This document shows positions 10,076 to 64,000 of a DNA stretch of 64,000 nucleotides, one piece after another (within the stretch, counting starts at the first letter, position 1; each line of letters opens with the position of its first letter). The notes below the pieces were generated by a model. The model did not search any database. It saw only the letters and a list, made by a program, of their open reading frames with translations, and was not told the DNA's origin. This DNA comes from Arthrobacter sp. NIO-1057. GTDB taxonomy: Bacteria > Actinomycetota > Actinomycetes > Actinomycetales > Micrococcaceae. The stretch is from assembly GCF_900094805.1 (NCBI RefSeq), contig NZ_FMAT01000001.1, forward strand, positions 1,126,196-1,190,195, given 5' to 3'. The position numbers and the translations under genes are program-made.

Positions 10076-10989
10076 AACGCTTCTCCTTGCGACAGTACGG
10101 GCTGATCAGTCGGTGCAACCCAATGGCCGTCTCCGTGGTCTTCCAGGTCCTGAACATTGGTGAATTTGACGCCCTCGGCCAGCCCTGTGAGCTTGACCTT
10201 GGGGCCGTGCAGCGGTGGGAACGCACCGAGAAGAGCTTGCGTGTACGGGTGGCGGGAGTCGTGGTGGAGGATCCGTGATGGCGCAAGCTCCACAATGCGG
10301 CCGCCATACATGATGCCAATACGGTTGGAGAGTTCAAGCATCAGTGACATGTCGTGAGTGATGAACAAGATGGCAAAGCCCAATTCATTTTGCAGATCGC
10401 GGATCTGCTCCAGAATTTCTTGCTGTACCACTACGTCCAGTGCCGTGGTTGGTTCATCAAGGATCAACAACCTCGGGTTCAACGCACAGGCCATGGCGAT
10501 AACAATGCGCTGGCGCTGCCCGCCAGATAACTGATGCGGATAGGCGCGCAAACGTGCAGGATCAATCCTGACCATCTTGAGAAGCTCTTCAGCACGCTGC
10601 ATGGCTGTGGCACGGGTGCCGCCACGATGGGTGCGGATCACGTCAACAAATTGCTCGCCGATTCTGGTGACCGGATTCAAAGAATTCATCGCCGATTGGA
10701 ACACCATGGCGACGTTGTTCCAACGCCACGCACGCAGTTCCGCCTCGTCCATCCCCAAAACATCCTTGCCATCAAAAAGAATCTTGCCGTGCGTGATCCG
10801 GGCAGGATCCTTCAACAAACGCATGATCGAGTTGGCGATGGTTGACTTGCCGCAGCCCGACTCCCCCGCCAGGCCAAAAATCTCACCGGCGTGGATGGTG
10901 AAGCTGACGCGGTCGGCGCCGCGCACTGCGCGTTCATCGCTGACGTATTCGACCGTCAGTTCCTGGACTTCCAGTACCGGGACGCTCAT
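10072..10989 (-). CDS. ABC transporter ATP-binding protein, Dpp/Opp D type
   Basis: The second ATPase subunit (305 residues) of the same importer has Walker A GESGCGKST, Q-loop MVFQSAMNSLNP, signature LSGGQRQR and Walker B LLILDEPTTALD. The tail HPYTQALLGAFPPLHGP is typical of DppD/OppD, although the usual cysteine-rich Fe-S-like tail is absent. Its start overlaps the permease stop and its stop overlaps the next ATPase start, both by four bases, giving strict translational coupling and stoichiometric production of the heterodimeric ATPase. Confidence 0.88.
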   Translation of the reverse strand: MSVPVLEVQELTVEYVSDERAVRGADRVSFTIHAGEIFGLAGESGCGKSTIANSIMRLLKDPARITHGKILFDGKDVLGMDEAELRAWRWNNVAMVFQSAMNSLNPVTRIGEQFVDVIRTHRGGTRATAMQRAEELLKMVRIDPARLRAYPHQLSGGQRQRIVIAMACALNPRLLILDEPTTALDVVVQQEILEQIRDLQNELGFAILFITHDMSLMLELSNRIGIMYGGRIVELAPSRILHHDSRHPYTQALLGAFPPLHGPKVKLTGLAEGVKFTNVQDLEDHGDGHWVAPTDQPVLSQGEAL

Positions 10990-11960
10990 TTTTCTTCCTT
11001 TCGCGCCACGGTGGTCGCCGCGGTGCTCTTCGTTGCGTGCTTTGGACGGCGCAGGCGCGGGTTGGTGATTTCATCTACCGCGTAGTTGCACAGTGCCAAC
11101 GCGAATGCGACCAAGGCGATGGCCAGACCCGATGGCACAAAAATCCACCATTGGCCGAGCATGAGAGAACCATCGCTGGTAGCCCAGAAGAGATTGGTTC
11201 CCCAAGAGATCGTGTTCACGTCGCCCAGGCCCAGGAATTCGAGGCCAGCTTGAGCGCCGATGGATCCGATGATGCAGCCCAAGAGCGTGGTCATGACGAC
11301 CGAGGCCATGTTGGGCAGGATCTCGCGAATCATGATGCGCAGCGGGCGTTCTCCGGACACCAGCGCTGCGGCCACATAGTCCTTGCCCCGAATGGACATT
11401 GCCTGGGAACGCATGACGCGCGCGCTGCCAGCCCAACCGGTAATCACCAAGACGACAATGACCGTGCCAAGTCCCGGAGGCATGAAGGCCGCCAAGATCA
11501 CCAGCAACGGCAGACCCGGTACCAGTAGAAAGACGTTGGTCACCAGGGAAAGCACCTCGTCCAGGCCACGTCCGAAGTAGGCTCCGCTCAGACCGACGAG
11601 GACGCCTATAACGGTAGAAAAAATGCCGGCGGCAAAACCGACGAAGAGCGAGGAGCGGGCTCCCCACAGTGTCAGTCCCAGGACGTCTTGCCCTTTAGTC
11701 GTGGTCCCCAGCAGGTGCTGCAAGCTCGGGGTGCTAGCGCCGGCCGAAGTGATACGTGCCGGGTCCCCCGGGAACAGCAATGGAGCTAACAAGGCCAAGA
11801 TGATGAAGACAAGGATAATGCTCAGTCCGGCCATTGCCTTGCCATTGCGAAGCAAAGTGCGCAACAGGCGCGTTGCGCTTACTCGCGCACGATTGACCGT
11901 GCTTTCGTCGAGTGGCTCTTCAGCCATGAGTGTCTGGGGATCAATTGCATTCTGGCTCAT
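10986..11960 (-). CDS. ABC transporter permease, DppC type
   Basis: This 324-residue inner-membrane subunit has an N-terminal cytoplasmic segment, a first helix (about 42-65), an OppC-type extracytoplasmic insert with LLGTTTKGQDVL, and about five further helices. The EAA loop that docks the ATPases is AAALVSGERPLRIMIREILPN. It pairs with the DppB-type subunit encoded five bases upstream. The motif TTKGQDVLGLTLWGARSSL is diagnostic of the DppC/OppC family. The tail is rich in Lys, Arg and Thr. Confidence 0.87.
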   Translation of the reverse strand: MSQNAIDPQTLMAEEPLDESTVNRARVSATRLLRTLLRNGKAMAGLSIILVFIILALLAPLLFPGDPARITSAGASTPSLQHLLGTTTKGQDVLGLTLWGARSSLFVGFAAGIFSTVIGVLVGLSGAYFGRGLDEVLSLVTNVFLLVPGLPLLVILAAFMPPGLGTVIVVLVITGWAGSARVMRSQAMSIRGKDYVAAALVSGERPLRIMIREILPNMASVVMTTLLGCIIGSIGAQAGLEFLGLGDVNTISWGTNLFWATSDGSLMLGQWWIFVPSGLAIALVAFALALCNYAVDEITNPRLRRPKHATKSTAATTVARKEEK

Positions 11961-44359: not shown

Positions 44360-44797
44360 ATGCACAAGAAAATTGTCGTGAGCGCCGCAGTTATTGCACT
44401 TGGACTCTCAATGCTGACCGGTTGTTCATCGGGAAAGCTCTCGACCGAAGAGACATGCACACTGCTGACCGAGAAGGCCAAAGAGCTGGACCTCGCCAAT
44501 AAAACGGAGAGTGCCGTACAGGATATTCTTGCCGGAGATGACGAGAGTTTCACAGCTGCGATAAATGAGGTTACTGCGTTCTTGCAAGAAGCTGCCGATA
44601 AAACGAAAGATCAGAAACTAGCAGAAGCTCTGCAGGTCTCGATTAAGCAAAACAATCAAATGGTTGACCTCTTGTCCGACAAAGATCTGAGTCTGGCTGA
44701 CAAGATCTCCAAGACTCAATCGAACACGGTAGAAGATACCGAGAAAATGGCCTATGTGAGTACGGCTTGTCCAGAGCTAGACGAATTGGGCAACTAG
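44360..44797 (+). CDS. Small lipoprotein, paralogue 1 of a local triplet
   Basis: The 145-residue secreted lipoprotein of unknown function has a signal peptide with lipobox LTGC and Cys22 as lipid anchor. The mature part starts SSGKLSTEETC and is mainly helical and charged. It ends STACPELDELGN. The two conserved cysteines (in the EETC and ACP motifs) recur in both paralogues downstream and may form a disulphide outside the cell. GTGAGGAAC lies just before the ATG. I recognise no family. It opens a three-member paralogue array placed between truA and rplQ. Confidence 0.8.
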   Translation: MHKKIVVSAAVIALGLSMLTGCSSGKLSTEETCTLLTEKAKELDLANKTESAVQDILAGDDESFTAAINEVTAFLQEAADKTKDQKLAEALQVSIKQNNQMVDLLSDKDLSLADKISKTQSNTVEDTEKMAYVSTACPELDELGN

Positions 44798-45787: not shown

Positions 45788-46286
45788 ATGTTGAGGAAAG
45801 CCGCCACCACAATCGTCCTTCCACTTACTTGCTTGCTTGGCCTGTCTAGTTGCTTGTTCATCAGCAGAAGTTCCTCTCGGCGAGCCGGGAGCGTCTATCG
45901 TCGAGACAAAGTTATCCATCAGTGAGACCTGCGATTTGATCGATGACTTGGCAGTGAAACATAACGTTGAAGAAGAGCGTGCGTTGGCAGACATAGCTCT
46001 CCTGGCAAAAAATACGCAGCCAATGATTGATTTTCAAGCGACGAGCATACTCATATTTGACGAAGTGGCCAGCCGCGCAAGTGATGACAACATGCGAAAT
46101 GCGCTGTACGCGCAGGTCCGTAATTACCAGTTGATCAAAAAAGTCATTGGGGATCACTCAAGTGATGATCCGTCACTGTCAACAGCAGTTCAAGACGTTA
46201 AAAATCGGCTTAACCTCGATGCCATGCCGTACATACAAGAATCGTGTCCTGGTTCAATTGTGAATCCTTCGAGCGACAGTCCATAG
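45788..46286 (+). pseudogene. Frameshifted small lipoprotein, paralogue 2 of the triplet
   Basis: The true start is ATG 45788, five bases after AAGGAA. It encodes MLRKAATTIVLPLTC and then runs out of frame to a stop at 45923. The rest of the protein (SISETC...QESCPGS, to 46286) is in another frame. The shift falls in TTGCTTGCTTG (45829-45839). Removing one TTGC gives a continuous signal peptide ending LVAC, with Cys22 exactly as in both paralogues. The downstream frame alone could start only at a TTG (45837) without most of the signal. It is either a pseudogene, a repeat-length variant or a sequencing error. Confidence 0.8.
45829..45839 (+). repeat. TTGC tandem repeat at the lipoprotein frameshift
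   Basis: TTGCTTGCTTG is two and three-quarter copies of a tetranucleotide within the signal-peptide codons of the middle lipoprotein gene. A change of one unit switches the reading frame. Confidence 0.75.
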
Positions 46287-46434: not shown

Positions 46435-46875
46435 ATGCTCAAAAAGGTTGCGGCCAGTACCGCCGCGCTGGCGCTTCTCACCGTATCTCTGGCAAGTTGC
46501 TCATCGGGGAAGCTAAGTACCCAAGAAACCTGCAACTTCATCAATGGTCAGGTGGCCGAGAAGAATCTTGAGCAGAAGGCCGACGATGTCAGTGAGCAAG
46601 TTTTCGCCGGTGACACCAAAGAATACGCGAAAATCATGCATGAGTTCGAGGCGATCCTTACGGAAGCTGCCTCGAGGAGTAAAGATAAGAAGCTTGTTGC
46701 TGCTCTTAATGAGGCTTCGACGCAGAACCATGAGGTTGCCGAACTGATGGCCCAGGGCACGAGTGAGAACGTCACTGAAATCTCTGAGAAGATCGCCGCG
46801 TTAGAAACTGATGAAGCGTCTGAAGCTACCGCCTATTTGGATGAGTCCTGCCCGGATATGGCCAGCTTCAGCTAA
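46435..46875 (+). CDS. Small lipoprotein, paralogue 3 of the triplet
   Basis: The 146-residue lipoprotein has signal MLKKVAASTAALALL and lipobox LASC, with Cys22 as anchor. The mature N-terminus SSGKLSTQETC is nearly the same as in paralogue 1, and the end DESCPDMASFS keeps the second conserved cysteine. The middle is helical with many Glu, Lys and Ala. AAGGAAATT precedes the ATG. A bidirectional terminator follows, shared with rplQ. The function is unknown; the cysteine pair and lipid anchor indicate a role on the outer face of the membrane. Confidence 0.8.
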   Translation: MLKKVAASTAALALLTVSLASCSSGKLSTQETCNFINGQVAEKNLEQKADDVSEQVFAGDTKEYAKIMHEFEAILTEAASRSKDKKLVAALNEASTQNHEVAELMAQGTSENVTEISEKIAALETDEASEATAYLDESCPDMASFS

Positions 46876-57141: not shown

Positions 57142-57510
57142 TTACAGCACCTCCGGAGCCAGGGAAACGATCTTCATGAACTTCTTGTCACGAAGCTCAC
57201 GACCCACTGGGCCGAAAATACGGGTACCGCGTGGTTCACCTTCGTTCTTCAAGATCACAGCTGCGTTCTCGTCGAACTTGATGTAGGAACCGTCTGCACG
57301 ACGGATTTCCTTCTTAGTGCGAACGACGACTGCCTTTACGACGTCGCCCTTCTTCACGTTGCCGCCAGGAATTGCATCCTTGACGGTAGCGACAATGGTG
57401 TCGCCAATGCTTGCGTAGCGACGCTTCGAGCCACCAAGAACACGAATGGTAAGGATTTCCTTAGCACCGGTGTTATCGGCAACCTTGAGTCGCGACTCCT
57501 GCTGAATCAC
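57142..57510 (-). CDS. rplN: 50S ribosomal protein L14
   Basis: The 122-residue protein [40 protein letters not shown]... ends [25 protein letters not shown]14 sits at the subunit interface. It is the first r-protein gene of this cluster. The usual upstream neighbour rpsQ is not present within the window, so its promoter must lie in the spacer at 57511-58267. Confidence 0.98.
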
Positions 57511-58267
57511 TTCTTACTCCTGTCGTCTCGCTGGTTCTCTAACGAGCCTTGCGGAACGGATATGGTCTCCACGATACGTATCGCTTACCCCCACCGACGC
57601 GGGCGCACCGAATGCTGATCCCAAATGGCGGCAGGGCCGAGGCGTAAAATATCGAGGCTGTACTTGTGCGTCTAAACTGATTTAGGCCGCACTGCATCGC
57701 GCCGAAGGTGGATAGTCCCCGAACACGATGCGCACAGATTCTTAAGTCTAGCGCAGAGTGGCGCAAAACCGAAATGGTGTGGTATGCGCAAATAAGGCGT
57801 TGTTCGTCACATGTACTTCCGTGAACTTCCGCGGAATTACATAGAATCTCTCGGCTCTCTGACGGCTTCTTTTCCGAGAGAAAGTGATGATCTGACAGTT
57901 ATTTCGCCCGTGCAGCTCGAACTTCCAAGTCTCAACGTCGATACAATGTTGACGAATTTACCGAGCAGAAATTTCGCTATTGCAATCCGCGGTCATCAAC
58001 ACCCAGTGATAAAAAATCGTGATGTCGTTCGACTGATGTGCTTTCTAACTGGAGCGGCATCGGCTGTATTCGCGCTCTCTTCGGTTTTTAAAAGAGTTCA
58101 CCGAGGAAACTGCAGAAATTACAACTAGAAAGGCCGACAACGCATGCCATAGGTTCGGGTAGTAACCCGGCGTGAAGGCCTAGTTGACCGCCTCGGCTGA
58201 TCTAGCGCAAAACCCAAGTTCTGCCATTCACTTTGGGATTCGAAGTGAATTTAACCATTAGTCCCAT
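57511..58267. other. Spacer between the AAA+ gene and rplN with no supported gene
   Basis: This 757-base region is AT-richer than the r-protein genes. It should carry the rplN promoter on minus; TAGACT at about 57744-57749 is a possible -10. The 105-codon plus-strand frame at 57811-58128 has no ribosome binding site, no motif and only a short hydrophobic stretch, so I do not call it a gene. No remnant of rpsQ or another S10-operon gene is visible. Confidence 0.5.
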
Positions 58268-58326
58268 ATTTCTGGCGAAGATCCCCGTATAGCCAGAAAT
58301 GCCCGCCTAGTCTCTGGGATTAGGCG
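58268..58326 (-). terminator. Tandem hairpins downstream of the AAA+ gene
   Basis: CGCCTA/TAGGCG (58304-58309 with 58321-58326) and ATTTCTGGC/GCCAGAAAT (58268-58276 with 58292-58300) lie 35-90 bases after the AAA+ gene stop on minus. They probably end its transcript before rplN. T-tracts are weak. Confidence 0.55.
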
Positions 58327-58360
58327 AACATTTCCTAGTTGAAAATCTTGAACAAAAGTA

Positions 58361-61300
58361 CTAGGCACCTGATTCAGTGATTACGTCTTTGGTTGCTAGC
58401 ACACGGCGTACGGAATCAAGGATCGCTCTAGTGAGACTTAGATGCGATTCCTGCCAATCTTGAACTGTCTGTAACGGATATTCCTCAGTCGTTATGATTT
58501 CAGCTTCCGGGGTAACGCTATCACCTCTATAGCCTGAGGTTGCCGGCAAATCCCCATTGCTACCGCCTGCGAAGTAATACATCTTTGACTTGTTTCCAGG
58601 AATGAAACGCAATTGCATGCCCATACTGTGCCCTCCCTGCCAGTAAACTTCTTGGATTCCGAGAGCCATGAGCTCTGGACCTGCAGGCGCACTGGATCCG
58701 CGAACGATCCCTGGAGCCAGTTCTTGGGCTGCATTGCCGACTTGTTCGCGTACAGCCGTACGTCGACGTTCACGTTCTTGACCACTTATTTCTTCGCGGA
58801 ATACTTTGGATGCGGGCAAGGTCGATCTAGGCACAACCGTTAGATTCGAAGTTTCATTCCCCCTTGGAGCAATAAGTTCGGCTCCTTCACAAGCCGCGAC
58901 AAGGTCGACGATAGAAATCCTGTTGAGTTCTTCACGACCAGGCGTAACAAGAAGGTCTGAGAAAATTCGTCCATTCCTATGCTTCTCGGCGGAGGCAAGA
59001 AGATAACCCATATCGTTTGCGTTGGTCTTGCCTGATTCACGCACGTCTCGGCGCTCCATCGCGTAGTCCAAACGTAATGCCAATTCCGGTAATACATCCT
59101 CGTCCAGTATTTCCTGCCTAGACATCGCCATTGCGTGGAAAATCCCGACTAGTTCATTATTGTCGTACGGTTCGAAACTCAGCTTTTTGAATGTGAAGAC
59201 TTCATTGGTGCTTCCGGCTTCAACGAACCGGTTCAAATCATAATCTTCACCAGCAAAAATAATTGCCGAGTACAGCCCGCTCTTGACTAGGATTTCCTTG
59301 GCTTCTGAAGCGAACTCCTTAACGAATGCGTCTGATAGTCGTTGGCCTCTGCTGTCGAGATAAAGAACTCCGCCTGTAGAACTACTTACTATCTCAACAA
59401 CCCATTTTTTGAAACCATCGTTGCTTATGTCCGTTAGCTCATCTAGCGCTGCATACTCGAATTTATTGCTAGGTAGTAGCCCAAGCGCGCAGTAGAGGCG
59501 ACCCAACAGTCGTGCAATGGTCTTCTTACCTGTACCTGCTTCGCCACTGAAGAGCAAGAACTCCGCCACATTTTCTTCCGCACGAAGTCCCAATGCACGT
59601 CTAGTCTGATGCGCTCGTGCTTCAGCTAGCCATTCCGAGATCGTTGCCTTCAGAGGCTCTTGTCCTACGTGGTTTTCTAATTCTTCCACGAGCCGCTCGA
59701 CGGTTTCAGCAGATTCAGCTTCCGTGCTATTTTCGGCGGGCTTCATGACGAATTCGCCAGCGACGAGTTCGTCTACTAAATCCGCTTCACCGGCTTCGAC
59801 TATAGACGGCAGTTCCGATCGACTCATTGGGTGTTCGTCGACTCGGACCTGGGAAATTGCTTGCGAATATCCTGCTACTAAATCGATGCTATCCTGCTCT
59901 GGTTCGAAAGGTTCGGCGAAATCTGGCGAGATATCGCTGTCATAATGCGGTACCTCTCTTGAATCCTGATTTTTTTCAGCAAGTTCTTGAAAAGTTTTCG
60001 GTTCTCTTCCTATCAACTCTTCAAGTGCAGGTTTGAGATCGCAGCTTAGAACCTCCGTGAGCTCCTTAGCCGTTGGTTGATAACCAGAAATCTCGAAGAC
60101 TCGTTGATCGCGGAGCCGAGCAGCATGAGCAACCAGATTGCCTATCGAACCTGCATTTCCCCATGATTTTGACGCGAAGACACCGTTGTTTTCTGCGCAG
60201 GTAAGTCTGTTCTTGAGCAGCACTAACGCATCGTTATCCAGATATCCTCCCTGTGCGGCTAGCATCTGTTCCGCAATCTGAACGAGTTCAAGCGCTGAAT
60301 AAGGGAAGAATTCAATGGTTGTCTCGAAACGGCGTGCCAGGCCGTCGTTCAATGCCAAGAAGTCTTGCATCGGTCCGGCATAGCCCGCAGCGATGACCAA
60401 GAACTTTCCTGCATCGTCACTCATCCTCTTCATTAAAGCTTCGACGGCTTCAACGCCCGGATCGTTTTCCGAACGTCCTTTAAGTGTGTAAGCCTCGTCG
60501 ACAAATAGAACACCGCCCATCGCGCTATCAATAACTTCATTGGTTTTAATCGCAGTTTGGCCAACATAACCTGATACCAACCCGGACCTATCGACTTCGA
60601 CCACGTGTCCGCTAGGAAGCAAACCTAACGCCCGATATAAGCGAGCCAGCAGCCGGGCGATGGTCGTCTTGCCCGTTCCCGGGGGTCCTACAAATAGCAA
60701 ATGTGGAAGCCGTTCGCTAGCTTGTTCGATCCCTAGCTCTGTGCGTCGTAGCTTGGCTTCAACACCAAGGCGTAGCGCTCTAACCTGTGCTTTCAGCTCC
60801 GGTTGTCCAACCTTGGCGTCGAGCTCGGCTAAGACATCTTCGACGCTCTCATCGACTTCGGAGTTCCCACCGAGCAACTCTTTGAGCGCCGGTTCAATGT
60901 CTGCGACTGTCAGAGTATTCAGGTCTTTATCCAGCCGAGGATTCGCAGGATCTTGTAGCACACGCTGATCGCGCAATCGGGATGCGTGGGAAACCAAATT
61001 CTGAATAGAACCAGCGTTTCCCCATTCAGATGAATCAAAAATTCCAGACTTCTCAGCACTGACCAAACGACGTTCGAGGTGCTTTCCCGCTTCAACCTCG
61101 AATCGTCCACCCCGTGCGCCCAGCATCTGTTCTGCAATCTGATGAAGCTCAAGAGCCGAATAGGGAGAGAAACTAATAGTCGTTGGGAAACGACGTTGCA
61201 ATCCAAAATTCATCTTCAAGAAATCCTGCATCGGCCCTGCATAGCCCGCCGCTATAACCAAGAATTTCCCGGCATCATCGCTCATCCTTTTCATGAGTGT

Positions 61301-64000
61301 TTCAACTGCTTCTTGGCCGAAATCAGACTCTGATCGGTTCTTCAACGTATAAGCCTCATCGATAAAGAGCACACCGCCCATCGCCCTATCAACTGCTTCA
61401 TTAGTCTTGATTGCCGTCTGACCGACATAGCCCGCAACCAGCCCTGATCTATCGACCTCGATCACGTGTCCGCTATGTAGAAGACCTAAGGCGCGATACA
61501 ACCGAGCCAGCAATCTGGCAATAGTCGTCTTGCCCGTTCCAGGAGGGCCCGTGAATAGCAAATGCGGCAGATCAATCTCCATTGGACCCTGCCCTAGTTC
61601 GGCCCGACGTTGCATCGCTTCAACGCCAAGACGCAAAGACTTCACCTGTGCCTTCAATTGCGGCTGCCCGACCTTAGCGTCAAGCTCAGCTAGAACATCT
61701 TCAACGCTCTCAGAGCCTTCGGATTGTCCACCGAAAAGCTCATTAAGAGCTGGTTCGATATCTTCGATCTTTAAGGTGTTGAGAACTTCAAGATTTGGTC
61801 GCTGCTCTGAGACTGAAACTACCCGTTGGTCCCGTAGACGCTCGGCATGCGCCACCATATTCTCAATGGACCCTGCGTTTCCCCATGTCTTGCTTTTGAA
61901 TGCACCGGTTTTTTCGGACTTCAATAAGCGTTCTTCCAAATACCCCCGCGCTTCTTCGTCTAAATGTCCGCCTCGCGTAGCGATCATCTGCTCAGCAATC
62001 TGAAGGAGTTCAACAGCCGAATACGGAACAAAATTAATAGTGGTTGGGAAGCGCCGTGGTAAACCCGCATTCATCGTCAAGAAGTCTTGGATCGGTTCAA
62101 CATACCCTGCTGCAATAACGAGGAATCTTCCTTTGTCATCACTCATCCGTTTCATCAACGTATTGACGGCTTCTACGCCAGGATTATTCGATGAATCATC
62201 CTTTAGAGTGTAGGCTTCGTCGATAAATAGAATTCCGCCCATAGCCTTATCAATTTGCTCATTCGTTTTTGGCCCGGTCTGTCCTACATAACCGGAAACA
62301 AGGCCTGACCTGTCCACTTCAATCACGTGGCCGCTAGGTAGAAGACCCAAAGCGCGATACAAGCGAGCCAGCAACCTGGCAATTGTCGTTTTACCTGTGC
62401 CGGGGGGACCCGTGAACAGCAAATGCGGCAAATCAATAGCGATAGGGCCTTGGCCTAGCTCGGCACGGCGTTGCATCGCTTCAACGCTTGCACACAGGGA
62501 GCGTACCTGAGCCTTTAGCTTCGGCTGCCCAACCTTGGCATCAAGCTCAGCCAGAACGTCTTCGACACGCTCAGTTGTCGTTCCGCGGCGTCCGATGCCC
62601 ATATCGTCGCACGCTGCTAAAACGTCTTCTTCAGAAATCGTAGACAGTGAGTCAAGATCTAAAGTTTGAGCATCGCTTACTCTCAAGTCTCGATATTCAG
62701 AAGATTTTGACATTAGATTACGCATAGTGCGGGCATTGCCCCAGTCACTTTTATCAAATCCACCGCGTAGTTCCTCTTCGGTGAGCCGTTGCAGCAGAAG
62801 GACTTCGGCAGTTTCACTCAGACTATTATCGTTCTTCCTAGACATGATTTGCGCAATATCTACAAGTTCTTCGGGAGAATATGATTCAAATTCTATAAAC
62901 GAGGAGAATCTGGATGGGATTCCTGGATTTGATTTCAGGAATCCATCCATTTCGTCCGTATAGCCTGCCGCGATGCAGACGATCTGCCCCTGGTTGTCCT
63001 CAATGCCCTTGAGAAGCGTGTCTATCGCTTGCGGGCCAAAATCATTCTGTCCCCCAGATGCGAGACTATAAGCTTCATCAATGAATAGAACACCACCCAA
63101 CGCTTCTTCAATCGCGGCCTGCGTTTTTTCCTCCGTACCACCGATGTGCGAAGCAACGAGCTTAGTTCGATCCACTTCGATCAGTTTGTCAGTCGGCAGG
63201 ATATCGAGGGCATAAAATAGCTCCGCAAGAAGTCGGGCTACGGATGTTTTTCCCGTGCCTGGAGGGCCGCTAAAAATGAAATTCTTGGTAAGACTACTGC
63301 CTTTTAGCCCAAGCTCAGCACGGTGCTTGGCAAGCTCGACCTGTCGCACTATACGTTCGACTTGGTTCTTAACCGATGCTTGCCCAGTGAACTCTTCTAG
63401 TTTCGCCAAAACGTCGCTCTTCTGTGGCTTCGAACGAGCCAACTTCCGTGCTGATGCAGAGATTCTTTGTTGATAGATGGTAATTGAAGACGAGCTGCCC
63501 CAATATCGGTGACAGTAGCCCACATATCCGTTTTTGCCAGAACTTCGCGTAAGGCGAAGGATCTTGGAGTCTTCCGACACGCCAATACTCGGATTCCCAA
63601 ATTCCTGGTACATAGAGCTTGCCACGAACGCAGCCCCAACGGTCCAGCGGCTGTCTACTGGGATTAGGGCCGGTATGCCAAGAACCTGAGCAGTCAAAGG
63701 ACTACCTAGCTTACCCTTGTCATTTCGGAAGATCACAGAGCTAGGTGTAACCGCAATGAAAAACTCTTCCGTTTCCCCAGTCCGACCAAGGTTCTGCAAG
63801 TCGTCGTTCTGGAGAACAGCCTTTGTGCTCAGTCCTGCAGTCGTGAACTGCTTATAGTTCTCCAGCATCTGCGAGGGATCCCAAAGGTCCAACTCGAAAA
63901 GTGGCTGCTGATTCAATGATTGCACTTCAAGAACAATGGCGTCATCGACGACTCGTTGAATGAAACTTGCTTTTTCTTCAGCTACAAAGAGGTCAAGAGC
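58361..64000 (-). CDS. Giant protein with five tandem CbxX/CfqX-type AAA+ modules (partial, runs off the right edge)
   Basis: The frame is open from the window edge to a stop at 58361, at least 1879 codons. The first in-frame start (GTG 63925) has no ribosome binding site, so the N-terminus is probably outside. Counting from that GTG, an N-terminal region of about 180 residues is unassigned. AAA+ modules follow with Walker A GPPGTGKT near 221, 505, 791 and 1078 and Walker B LFIDEAY or LFVDEAY. A fifth module near 1459 has GEAGTGKK and LYLDSRG, so is probably inactive. An acidic linker (about 1305-1420) and a C-terminal domain of about 200 residues complete it. The modules resemble CbxX/SpoVK/EccA ATPases. 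Function unknown. Confidence 0.85.
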   Translation of the reverse strand, partial: ALDLFVAEEKASFIQRVVDDAIVLEVQSLNQQPLFELDLWDPSQMLENYKQFTTAGLSTKAVLQNDDLQNLGRTGETEEFFIAVTPSSVIFRNDKGKLGSPLTAQVLGIPALIPVDSRWTVGAAFVASSMYQEFGNPSIGVSEDSKILRLTRSSGKNGYVGYCHRYWGSSSSITIYQQRISASARKLARSKPQKSDVLAKLEEFTGQASVKNQVERIVRQVELAKHRAELGLKGSSLTKNFIFSGPPGTGKTSVARLLAELFYALDILPTDKLIEVDRTKLVASHIGGTEEKTQAAIEEALGGVLFIDEAYSLASGGQNDFGPQAIDTLLKGIEDNQGQIVCIAAGYTDEMDGFLKSNPGIPSRFSSFIEFESYSPEELVDIAQIMSRKNDNSLSETAEVLLLQRLTEEELRGGFDKSDWGNARTMRNLMSKSSEYRDLRVSDAQTLDLDSLSTISEEDVLAACDDMGIGRRGTTTERVEDVLAELDAKVGQPKLKAQVRSLCASVEAMQRRAELGQGPIAIDLPHLLFTGPPGTGKTTIARLLARLYRALGLLPSGHVIEVDRSGLVSGYVGQTGPKTNEQIDKAMGGILFIDEAYTLKDDSSNNPGVEAVNTLMKRMSDDKGRFLVIAAGYVEPIQDFLTMNAGLPRRFPTTINFVPYSAVELLQIAEQMIATRGGHLDEEARGYLEERLLKSEKTGAFKSKTWGNAGSIENMVAHAERLRDQRVVSVSEQRPNLEVLNTLKIEDIEPALNELFGGQSEGSESVEDVLAELDAKVGQPQLKAQVKSLRLGVEAMQRRAELGQGPMEIDLPHLLFTGPPGTGKTTIARLLARLYRALGLLHSGHVIEVDRSGLVAGYVGQTAIKTNEAVDRAMGGVLFIDEAYTLKNRSESDFGQEAVETLMKRMSDDAGKFLVIAAGYAGPMQDFLKMNFGLQRRFPTTISFSPYSALELHQIAEQMLGARGGRFEVEAGKHLERRLVSAEKSGIFDSSEWGNAGSIQNLVSHASRLRDQRVLQDPANPRLDKDLNTLTVADIEPALKELLGGNSEVDESVEDVLAELDAKVGQPELKAQVRALRLGVEAKLRRTELGIEQASERLPHLLFVGPPGTGKTTIARLLARLYRALGLLPSGHVVEVDRSGLVSGYVGQTAIKTNEVIDSAMGGVLFVDEAYTLKGRSENDPGVEAVEALMKRMSDDAGKFLVIAAGYAGPMQDFLALNDGLARRFETTIEFFPYSALELVQIAEQMLAAQGGYLDNDALVLLKNRLTCAENNGVFASKSWGNAGSIGNLVAHAARLRDQRVFEISGYQPTAKELTEVLSCDLKPALEELIGREPKTFQELAEKNQDSREVPHYDSDISPDFAEPFEPEQDSIDLVAGYSQAISQVRVDEHPMSRSELPSIVEAGEADLVDELVAGEFVMKPAENSTEAESAETVERLVEELENHVGQEPLKATISEWLAEARAHQTRRALGLRAEENVAEFLLFSGEAGTGKKTIARLLGRLYCALGLLPSNKFEYAALDELTDISNDGFKKWVVEIVSSSTGGVLYLDSRGQRLSDAFVKEFASEAKEILVKSGLYSAIIFAGEDYDLNRFVEAGSTNEVFTFKKLSFEPYDNNELVGIFHAMAMSRQEILDEDVLPELALRLDYAMERRDVRESGKTNANDMGYLLASAEKHRNGRIFSDLLVTPGREELNRISIVDLVAACEGAELIAPRGNETSNLTVVPRSTLPASKVFREEISGQERERRRTAVREQVGNAAQELAPGIVRGSSAPAGPELMALGIQEVYWQGGHSMGMQLRFIPGNKSKMYYFAGGSNGDLPATSGYRGDSVTPEAEIITTEEYPLQTVQDWQESHLSLTRAILDSVRRVLATKDVITESGA
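59900..62600 (-). repeat. Internal direct repeats of about 860 bases (AAA+ modules 2-4)
   Basis: Three consecutive modules are similar at DNA level. The segments around CACGTG at 60604, 61463 and 62324 continue through the Walker A codons with long shared blocks, offset by 859-861 bases (286-287 codons). This indicates tandem duplication of one AAA+ module, more recent than the split from modules 1 and 5. Confidence 0.75.

Follow-up and report, generated by a model that had tools for sequence, protein, structure and literature searches.

A five-module AAA+ array with a sliding-clamp-like N-terminal domain, encoded on an insertion in the genome of Arthrobacter sp. NIO-1057

At the end of the 64,000-nucleotide stretch of the Arthrobacter sp. 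NIO-1057 contig analyzed here (the window), a truncated gene raises the question of what a protein with five AAA+ modules in one chain might do and what its two ends consist of. The first-pass annotation had read this gene as five CbxX/CfqX-type AAA+ cassettes in a single frame, within a polypeptide of more than 1850 residues, and had suggested rubisco-activase-like remodelling, support of type VII secretion, or phage defence as possible roles. Extension of the contig, which it had proposed, located the true start and the upstream neighbours P0002 and P0003. The gene product, P0001, is encoded by a single open frame of 1966 residues without an internal stop, running from an ATG at window-equivalent position 64261 (contig coordinate C3:1190456, in the DNA adjoining the window) to a stop at 58361, with a Shine-Dalgarno-like AAAGGGAG upstream of the ATG. 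The window edge cuts the gene, leaving residues 1–87 outside. The uninterrupted frame, its five Walker A sites, and the length beyond 1850 residues bore out the initial reading. P0001 consists of an N-terminal clamp-like piece, five AAA+ modules with an acidic linker before the fifth, and a C-terminal region, laid out as follows.

58361..64000, minus strand: clamp-AAA+ array gene, residues 88–1966 of 1966 plus the stop codon; single open frame (whole gene at L009:1557-7457, window-equivalent 58361-64261)
63908..64000, minus strand: end (residues 88–118) of D1, a DnaN-like clamp domain (Pfam DNA_pol3_beta_2 below cut-off, and pair profile against DnaN)
63437..63889, minus strand: D2 (residues 125–275), candidate second clamp-like domain (strand/helix order by eye only; sequence tests negative)
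62585..63403, minus strand: AAA+ module 1 (residues 287–559), pore-loop aromatic replaced (SHIGG), GNAR kept; sister of P0004 module 1 (99/96)
61727..62545, minus strand: AAA+ module 2 (residues 573–845), Walker A/B, GY, RRF, and pore Tyr intact, GNAG in place of GNAR (motif reading)
60866..61684, minus strand: AAA+ module 3 (residues 860–1132), motifs like module 2 (motif reading)
60005..60823, minus strand: AAA+ module 4 (residues 1147–1419), motifs like module 2 (motif reading)
59687..59974, minus strand: acidic linker (residues 1430–1525), read from the sequence
58862..59680, minus strand: degenerate AAA+ module 5 (residues 1528–1800) with GEAGTGKK and LYLDS, no GY and no Arg finger; 28–34% identity to the other four
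58364..58861, minus strand: C-terminal region (residues 1801–1966); no Pfam/NCBIfam match for residues 1770–1966

The Walker A motifs lie at residues 332, 618, 905, 1192, and 1573. The proposed spacing of about 286 residues holds for modules 1–4 (286, 287, and 287) but not for module 5, which follows at 381 behind the acidic linker. Pfam AAA matched P0001 in four stretches (249.9 bits, E 8.7e-75), as did AAA_lid_6, and the remaining Pfam families among the best 25 of 72 were P-loop or other NTPase models on the same stretches. Modules 1–4 all contain Walker A, Walker B, the sensor-1 GY, and an N-x-G-x-x-(S/R)-R-F loop, so the Walker motifs originally claimed for four modules are present; the RRF form of the Arg-finger loop occurs only in modules 2–4, while module 1 has SRF. 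The pore-loop aromatic is absent from module 1, being His in P0001 and Asn in P0004 (a homologue described below), whereas modules 2–4 of P0001 keep the pore Tyr. Modules 2–4 carry GNAG, compared with GNAR in module 1 and in all three modules of P0004. On our reading the Arg of GNAR is the sensor-2 arginine; it is Gly in modules 2–4 and Asn in module 5, which makes the ATPase activity of modules 2–4 uncertain. Most motifs have been lost from module 5.

An AAA+ core with Walker A and Walker B was found in four of the five P0001 modules, and GY at sensor 1 together with Asn before the first Arg finger in the same proportion and in all three P0004 modules. The modules score best with CbbX, EccA, and SpoVK models, and judged by these motifs they belong to the SpoVK-CbbX-EccA clade of AAA+ proteins; the earlier description of a covalent CbxX/CfqX-type array was right. 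Modules 2–4 share 71–74% protein identity with one another and 42–45% with module 1, and module 5 is 28–34% identical to the rest. At the DNA level, modules 2–4 are 65–68% identical, with only 38–43% of third codon positions matching. This divergence of third positions, far greater than that of the protein, indicates old duplications kept by selection and not a collapsed assembly. Neither a frameshift nor an assembly collapse, named at the outset as grounds for abandoning the one-gene reading, was found.

The N-terminal domain, which could not be assigned from the window because most of it lies outside, showed similarity to bacterial sliding clamps. With E up to 1, the sole Pfam match of residues 1–289 was DNA_pol3_beta_2 of DnaN (E 0.0036, residues 17–87) and the sole NCBIfam match of the N-terminal piece was DnaN (E 0.0062), both below cut-off. 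The DnaN family model gave 15.5 bits against an equivalog cut-off of 137.65 bits, with one clamp domain detected, not three. When residues 1–286 were searched against 347 genomes of the order (E up to 0.001), nothing was matched apart from P0001 and, in two genomes, dnaN (per-genome E 8.4e-5 and 2.1e-4), with 39–40% identity over 71–72 residues. The N-terminal region of P0004 had DNA_pol3_beta as its sole Pfam match (E 6.7e-4, below cut-off) and 'DNA polymerase processivity factor' as its sole PHROG match (E 1.5e-5), and it matched NCBIfam DnaN at E 0.26; the same PHROG family ranked first for the N-terminus of P0001 (E 0.12).

Profile comparisons gave stronger signals. A two-row profile of the P0001 and P0004 N-termini was searched against PDB (E up to 10), and 13 of the 19 chains found were sliding clamps, including the top three (E 0.038, 0.07, and 0.11); the other six comprised three antibodies and three DHFR-thymidylate synthases. 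For each of the 13 clamps, the best stretch fell in the central domain. Compared with a DnaN profile, the pair profile scored 53.8 (probability 94.5%, 102 columns), whereas none of 46 window ORFs, taken as single sequences, scored above 26.8 and no shuffle among 100 of the pair's columns above 24.3. As single sequences, D1 of P0004 scored 41.2 and that of P0001 33.2. When D1 was aligned end to end with the central DnaN domain, none of 60 shuffles did as well. The first DnaN profile was built from 28 of 32 dnaN loci after filtering; in the later one, on which the scores given here are based, six paralogue ORFs were added and the ORF at L083 was missed.

Profile similarity above that of the controls thus extended over one whole clamp domain, with the single-sequence matches of P0001 alone being weak. 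That residues ~1–118 (D1) represent a divergent relative of the bacterial sliding-clamp (DnaN) domain is well supported by these comparisons. D1 is one clamp domain and a fold relative only; it is not a clamp. Its domain of origin is ambiguous: P0001 and the pair profile matched the central clamp domain, whereas P0004 alone matched the first (in Pfam the model of the N-terminal domain, in PHROG and NCBIfam the beginning of the model). The segment TDRYRL in the DnaN of this genome, which we take to include peptide-pocket residues, is replaced by SDSRGL in P0001 and by TDQILL in P0004, and these residues are therefore partly kept at best.

Candidates for a second clamp piece were considered and rejected. 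The strand-helix order of D2 looked clamp-like by eye, but 73 of 150 shuffles scored at least as high. The upstream gene product P0002 (267 aa) gave the same impression, but 34 of 150 shuffles were as good or better, and its probability against the D1 pair profile was 12%. A clamp split over the two genes, suspected at first, found no support in these tests. Pfam, NCBIfam, and PHROG gave nothing better than E 0.12 for P0002, plasmids and IMG/VR contained no match to it, and 18 genomes yielded only two chance-level matches (E 0.39 and 0.61). AlphaFold2 on residues 100–290 as a single sequence gave no usable model (pLDDT 30.6), and because of this low value the clamp-like strand-helix order of the model carries no weight. 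At the other end of P0001, residues 1770–1966 matched nothing in Pfam or NCBIfam with E up to 1, in keeping with the initial view of an unassignable C-terminal domain; AlphaFold2 on residues 1795–1966 as a single sequence again yielded no usable model (pLDDT 40.3).

Comparison with a sibling genome (G246) revealed that the gene lies on an insertion. Both flanks of the locus aligned by blastn (99.7% and 93.9%) with 167 bp between them in the sibling, where the genome of the window has 11,742 bp (L009:1033-12774). G+C content is 46–50% inside the insertion and 55% outside. Two features locate it within the window.

57142..57510, minus strand: rplN (L14), named by eye, a flank of the insertion and outside the system
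57837..64000, no strand assigned: part of the 11,742-base insertion within the window, between rplN and an endo/exonuclease-phosphatase gene

The insertion carries P0003, P0002, and P0001 in this order and in one direction, with gaps of 34 and 71 bases. P0003 matched NERD (Pfam E 2.5e-6) and has membrane stretches by eye and weak zinc-ribbon matches; its match to EccE was insignificant (E 0.11). A 352-aa protein encoded on the opposite strand of the island weakly resembled an ECF transporter (E 9.8e-5, under the cut-off). At gathering score, L009:700-13000 had no Rfam match.

The rpsQ-rplN junction (L009:706-16880 here) holds accessory genes across the genus, with a gap of ~1.6–5.3 kb in 17 siblings. 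In 12 of these 17 gaps, AraC-, glyoxalase-, and endo/exonuclease-phosphatase-like ORFs were recognized by eye, and these are also present here; the extra 11.7 kb at the junction occurs only in the genome of the window when compared with the 17 siblings. About 1.5 kb inside the insertion (L009:10046-11520) contains no ORF over 72 aa wholly within it. At L009:15688-16134, a PHD-like antitoxin match (Pfam E 6e-8) overlaps a 173-aa ORF, possibly forming a toxin-antitoxin pair. Elsewhere in the window, three small lipoprotein-like ORFs, apparently related by eye, lie in a row at 44360-44797, 45837-46286, and 46435-46875.

To determine the distribution of P0001, we searched the protein, its N-terminus, or alignment A4 against 295 genomes of the family, 347 and 396 of the order, 396 of the phylum, 18 of the genus, and 394 of the class, in overlapping draws. 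In the larger whole-protein searches, scoring was limited to the two or three best candidates of each genome. Among the 396 genomes of the order searched with whole P0001, one (G337), which belongs to another genus of this order, gave a match starting at residue 11. The protein found there, P0004, is 1133 residues long, with the same kind of N-terminal region followed by three AAA+ modules; the Walker A motifs at 336, 622, and 909 match the spacing of P0001, and the two N-terminal regions are 21% identical. P0004 was also searched in 47 genomes of the family of G337. Among the matches listed, the plan of D1 plus array was found only in the genome of the window and in G337. P0001 had no match in 17 sibling species at E up to 1e-10, its N-terminus had none in plasmids, phages, or IMG/VR, and for P0004 none was found in plasmids (N-terminus) or IMG/VR (whole protein).

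Upstream of the P0004 gene in G337 lies an Hsp70 ORF (E 6.5e-120), and a second upstream ORF encodes TPRs (E 1e-17), a membrane stretch by eye, and a region weakly similar to DnaJ (E 1.8e-4, under the cut-off).

L101:10352-13935 (G337): Hsp70 ORF and J-like/TPR ORF, codirectional with the clamp-AAA gene and immediately upstream of it; the listed ORFs overlap

The P0001 and P0004 loci have no recognized partner gene in common.

Phylogenetic analysis of 45 modules, from which module 5 was omitted because of its long branch, placed the first modules of P0001 and P0004 as sisters (99/96). Modules 2–4 of P0001 and modules 2–3 of P0004 formed one clade (98/82), within which the copies of each protein grouped together. 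Including module 5, whose branch is very long, left the first modules as sisters (99/94), and the clade of modules 2–4 and 2–3 was not recovered. The module tree suggests that D1, module 1, and a single additional module were probably present in the common ancestor of the two proteins, and that this additional module was later multiplied independently in each lineage.

Two-module CbxX-type proteins with other N-terminal regions, beta-helix-like or membrane by eye, were found in several genomes of the phylum. They resemble P0001 in having tandem modules of the same clade; those included in the tree fell outside the P0001/P0004 clade. The first-pass statement that CbxX/CfqX-type proteins have one or two domains was consistent with these two-module proteins, but P0004 has three, and a 1111-aa zinc-ribbon-like protein of Bacteroidales bacterium RGIG6710 (L046:8576-11908, plus strand) has about four CbxX-like modules by eye, the first with an altered Walker A. 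This locus was the sole result of one pattern scan of genome contigs with poor patterns, and its neighbours by eye are Ser/Thr-kinase-like, zinc-ribbon/FHA-like, and PP2C-like ORFs.

Comparison with known systems clarified what is shared and what differs. P0001 resembles the SpoVK-CbbX-EccA clade in its AAA core, AAA_lid_6, sensor-1 GY, Asn before the Arg finger, and the presence of a variable N-terminal domain, as described in PMC10659427, but it has five modules per chain and GNAG in place of GNAR in modules 2–4. The examples of N-terminal domains taken from PMC10659427 are TPR, beta-helix, beta-prism, and helicase domains, and a clamp-like N-terminus is not among these examples. The EccA model TIGR03922 reached 948 bits on P0001, a total over five stretches; the best covered positions 273–553 of 557, with the N-terminal half of EccA unmatched. 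CbbX (TIGR02880) is a single-module rubisco activase encoded beside rubisco genes, in contrast to the five modules of P0001. No rubisco gene and no type VII secretion gene was recognized by eye among the neighbouring ORFs, and the two corresponding roles suggested initially found no direct support. Relative to DnaN, D1 aligns end to end with the central domain, but P0001 lacks detectable counterparts of the other two clamp domains and is fused to AAA+ modules. Dynein is a eukaryotic protein with six modules and belongs to a different AAA+ clade from P0001. It is similar in combining many unequal AAA+ modules in one chain (cf. PMC4047620).

Taken as a whole, the explanation we prefer, tentatively and at slightly less than an even chance, is that P0001 is a AAA+ remodeller from the SpoVK-CbbX-EccA clade, accessory to the genome and gained by horizontal transfer, and that its clamp-like end chooses a partner linked to replication; both substrate and mechanism are proposals. 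The modules would sit next to one another, forming a covalent ring or an open spiral, and the pre-formed asymmetric ring or half-ring envisaged at first is a fair proposal. Modules 2–4, with their pore Tyr kept, might grip and pull the substrate, while module 1, having lost the pore aromatic, and the degenerate module 5 would set the asymmetry. The substrate may be chosen by D1, and the simplest candidates are the clamp itself or a replication or repair protein that interacts with it. P0001 would then work at the replication machinery, be it that of the host or that of an invading element, as a chaperone dedicated to assembly or disassembly. PMC10659427 describes characterised chaperones of the clade as having dedicated targets, for which the variable N-terminal domains might be the recruiters; the role of D1 as a selector is proposed by likeness to these domains.

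An anti-phage or anti-plasmid system is unlikely but the most probable of the alternatives. Here, the clamp-like domain would mimic or sense invader clamps or clamp-binding proteins, the array would disable them, and the NERD protein would be the effector. The sporadic, low-GC insertion fits such a system, as does P0003 with its NERD match two genes upstream in the same direction, but a mobile insertion need not mean defence, and a NERD-like gene was not noticed beside P0004. Three of seven inspected plasmid relatives of the NERD gene were likewise without an AAA-annotated neighbour. PADLOC (E up to 0.01) found nothing for P0002, P0003, or the 352-aa island protein and returned matches to the AAA core for P0001 and P0004. 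The IetA model NF042959 of the IetAS defence system also matched the AAA core, at 101.1 bits against an NCBIfam cut-off of 510, leaving the phage-defence role suggested at first without direct support. Clamp genes in mobile surroundings would also suit this alternative: among 58 relatives searched, 7 carried a separate extra dnaN gene, which in five cases (L081-L085) lay in surroundings that looked phage- or plasmid-like by eye, and the copies at L079 and L080 were in surroundings not evidently of this kind. The second dnaN genes at L081, L082, L083, and L085 are divergent, and no AAA array was noticed among the ORF starts at the extra-dnaN loci.

At L084 (contig C9 of G005), two short clamp-like ORFs of 250 and 229 aa were observed (855-1604 and 10859-11545). 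Both align to DnaN domains II and III with no domain I and are possible two-domain bacterial-type clamps.

Rather less probable is a chaperone of EccA type with a general envelope or secretion role, whose N-terminus would be a recycled clamp fold without a link to replication. The functions given for the clade in PMC10659427, namely rubisco, MurG, and type VII secretion chaperones, favour this view, as do partner ORFs with membrane stretches by eye at both loci, the Hsp70 and J-like neighbours in G337, and the insignificant EccE match of P0003. However, no secretion genes were recognized by eye beside the P0001 or P0004 gene, and the N-terminal region specific to EccA is absent.

Relations to the clamp loader were also weighed. 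Bacterial clamp loaders (DnaX/HolA/HolB) comprise delta, three gamma, and delta-prime. P0001 shares with them five AAA+ units of unequal competence and a link to a clamp, but its modules belong to a different AAA+ clade and form one covalent chain. There is a small chance that a single-polypeptide clamp loader or unloader, acting on DNA-bound clamps or their partners, evolved a second time in bacteria from CbxX modules on a mobile insertion. Lower still we place a loader-like machine, convergent with the bacterial loader, in which the five modules would open the clamp-like N-terminal part of their own chain and load it on DNA. The 1+3+1 pattern of a distinct first, three near-equal, and a degenerate fifth module joined to a clamp-like domain recalls such a loader, but the modules score best with CbbX, EccA, and SpoVK models, and the loader model TIGR02397 (DnaX) reached a total of 83.7 bits, far below its cut-off of 250, with a best stretch of 28 positions. 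Furthermore, the homologue P0004 has just three modules, the pore Tyr in modules 2–4 suggests peptide threading, and the sequence tests did not support D2 or P0002 as clamp domains. An assembly or annotation artefact or a decaying repeat gene, as the repeated modules 2–4 and the decayed motifs of module 5 might suggest, is scarcely credible given the intact 1966-codon frame, third positions far more diverged than the protein, and the same module spacing in a second genus.

P0001 combines a sliding-clamp domain with chaperone-type AAA+ modules, two ring-forming machines that usually occur apart, and the combination hints at a new kind of molecular remodelling machine. Among the matches listed from the open-access literature, no member of the SpoVK-CbbX-EccA clade aimed at DNA replication and no title on DnaN fused to CbbX, EccA, or CbxX was found, and searches of this literature returned nothing joining sliding clamp with CbbX and AAA+ or sliding clamp with SpoVK. 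With intact, altered, and degenerate modules in a fixed order, the covalent array offers a tool for studying how unequal AAA+ subunits share work, and its three-module relative P0004 provides a ready comparison. If D1 reads out clamps or clamp partners, as our preferred explanation supposes, P0001 would be a SpoVK-CbbX-EccA protein that has DNA replication as its target.
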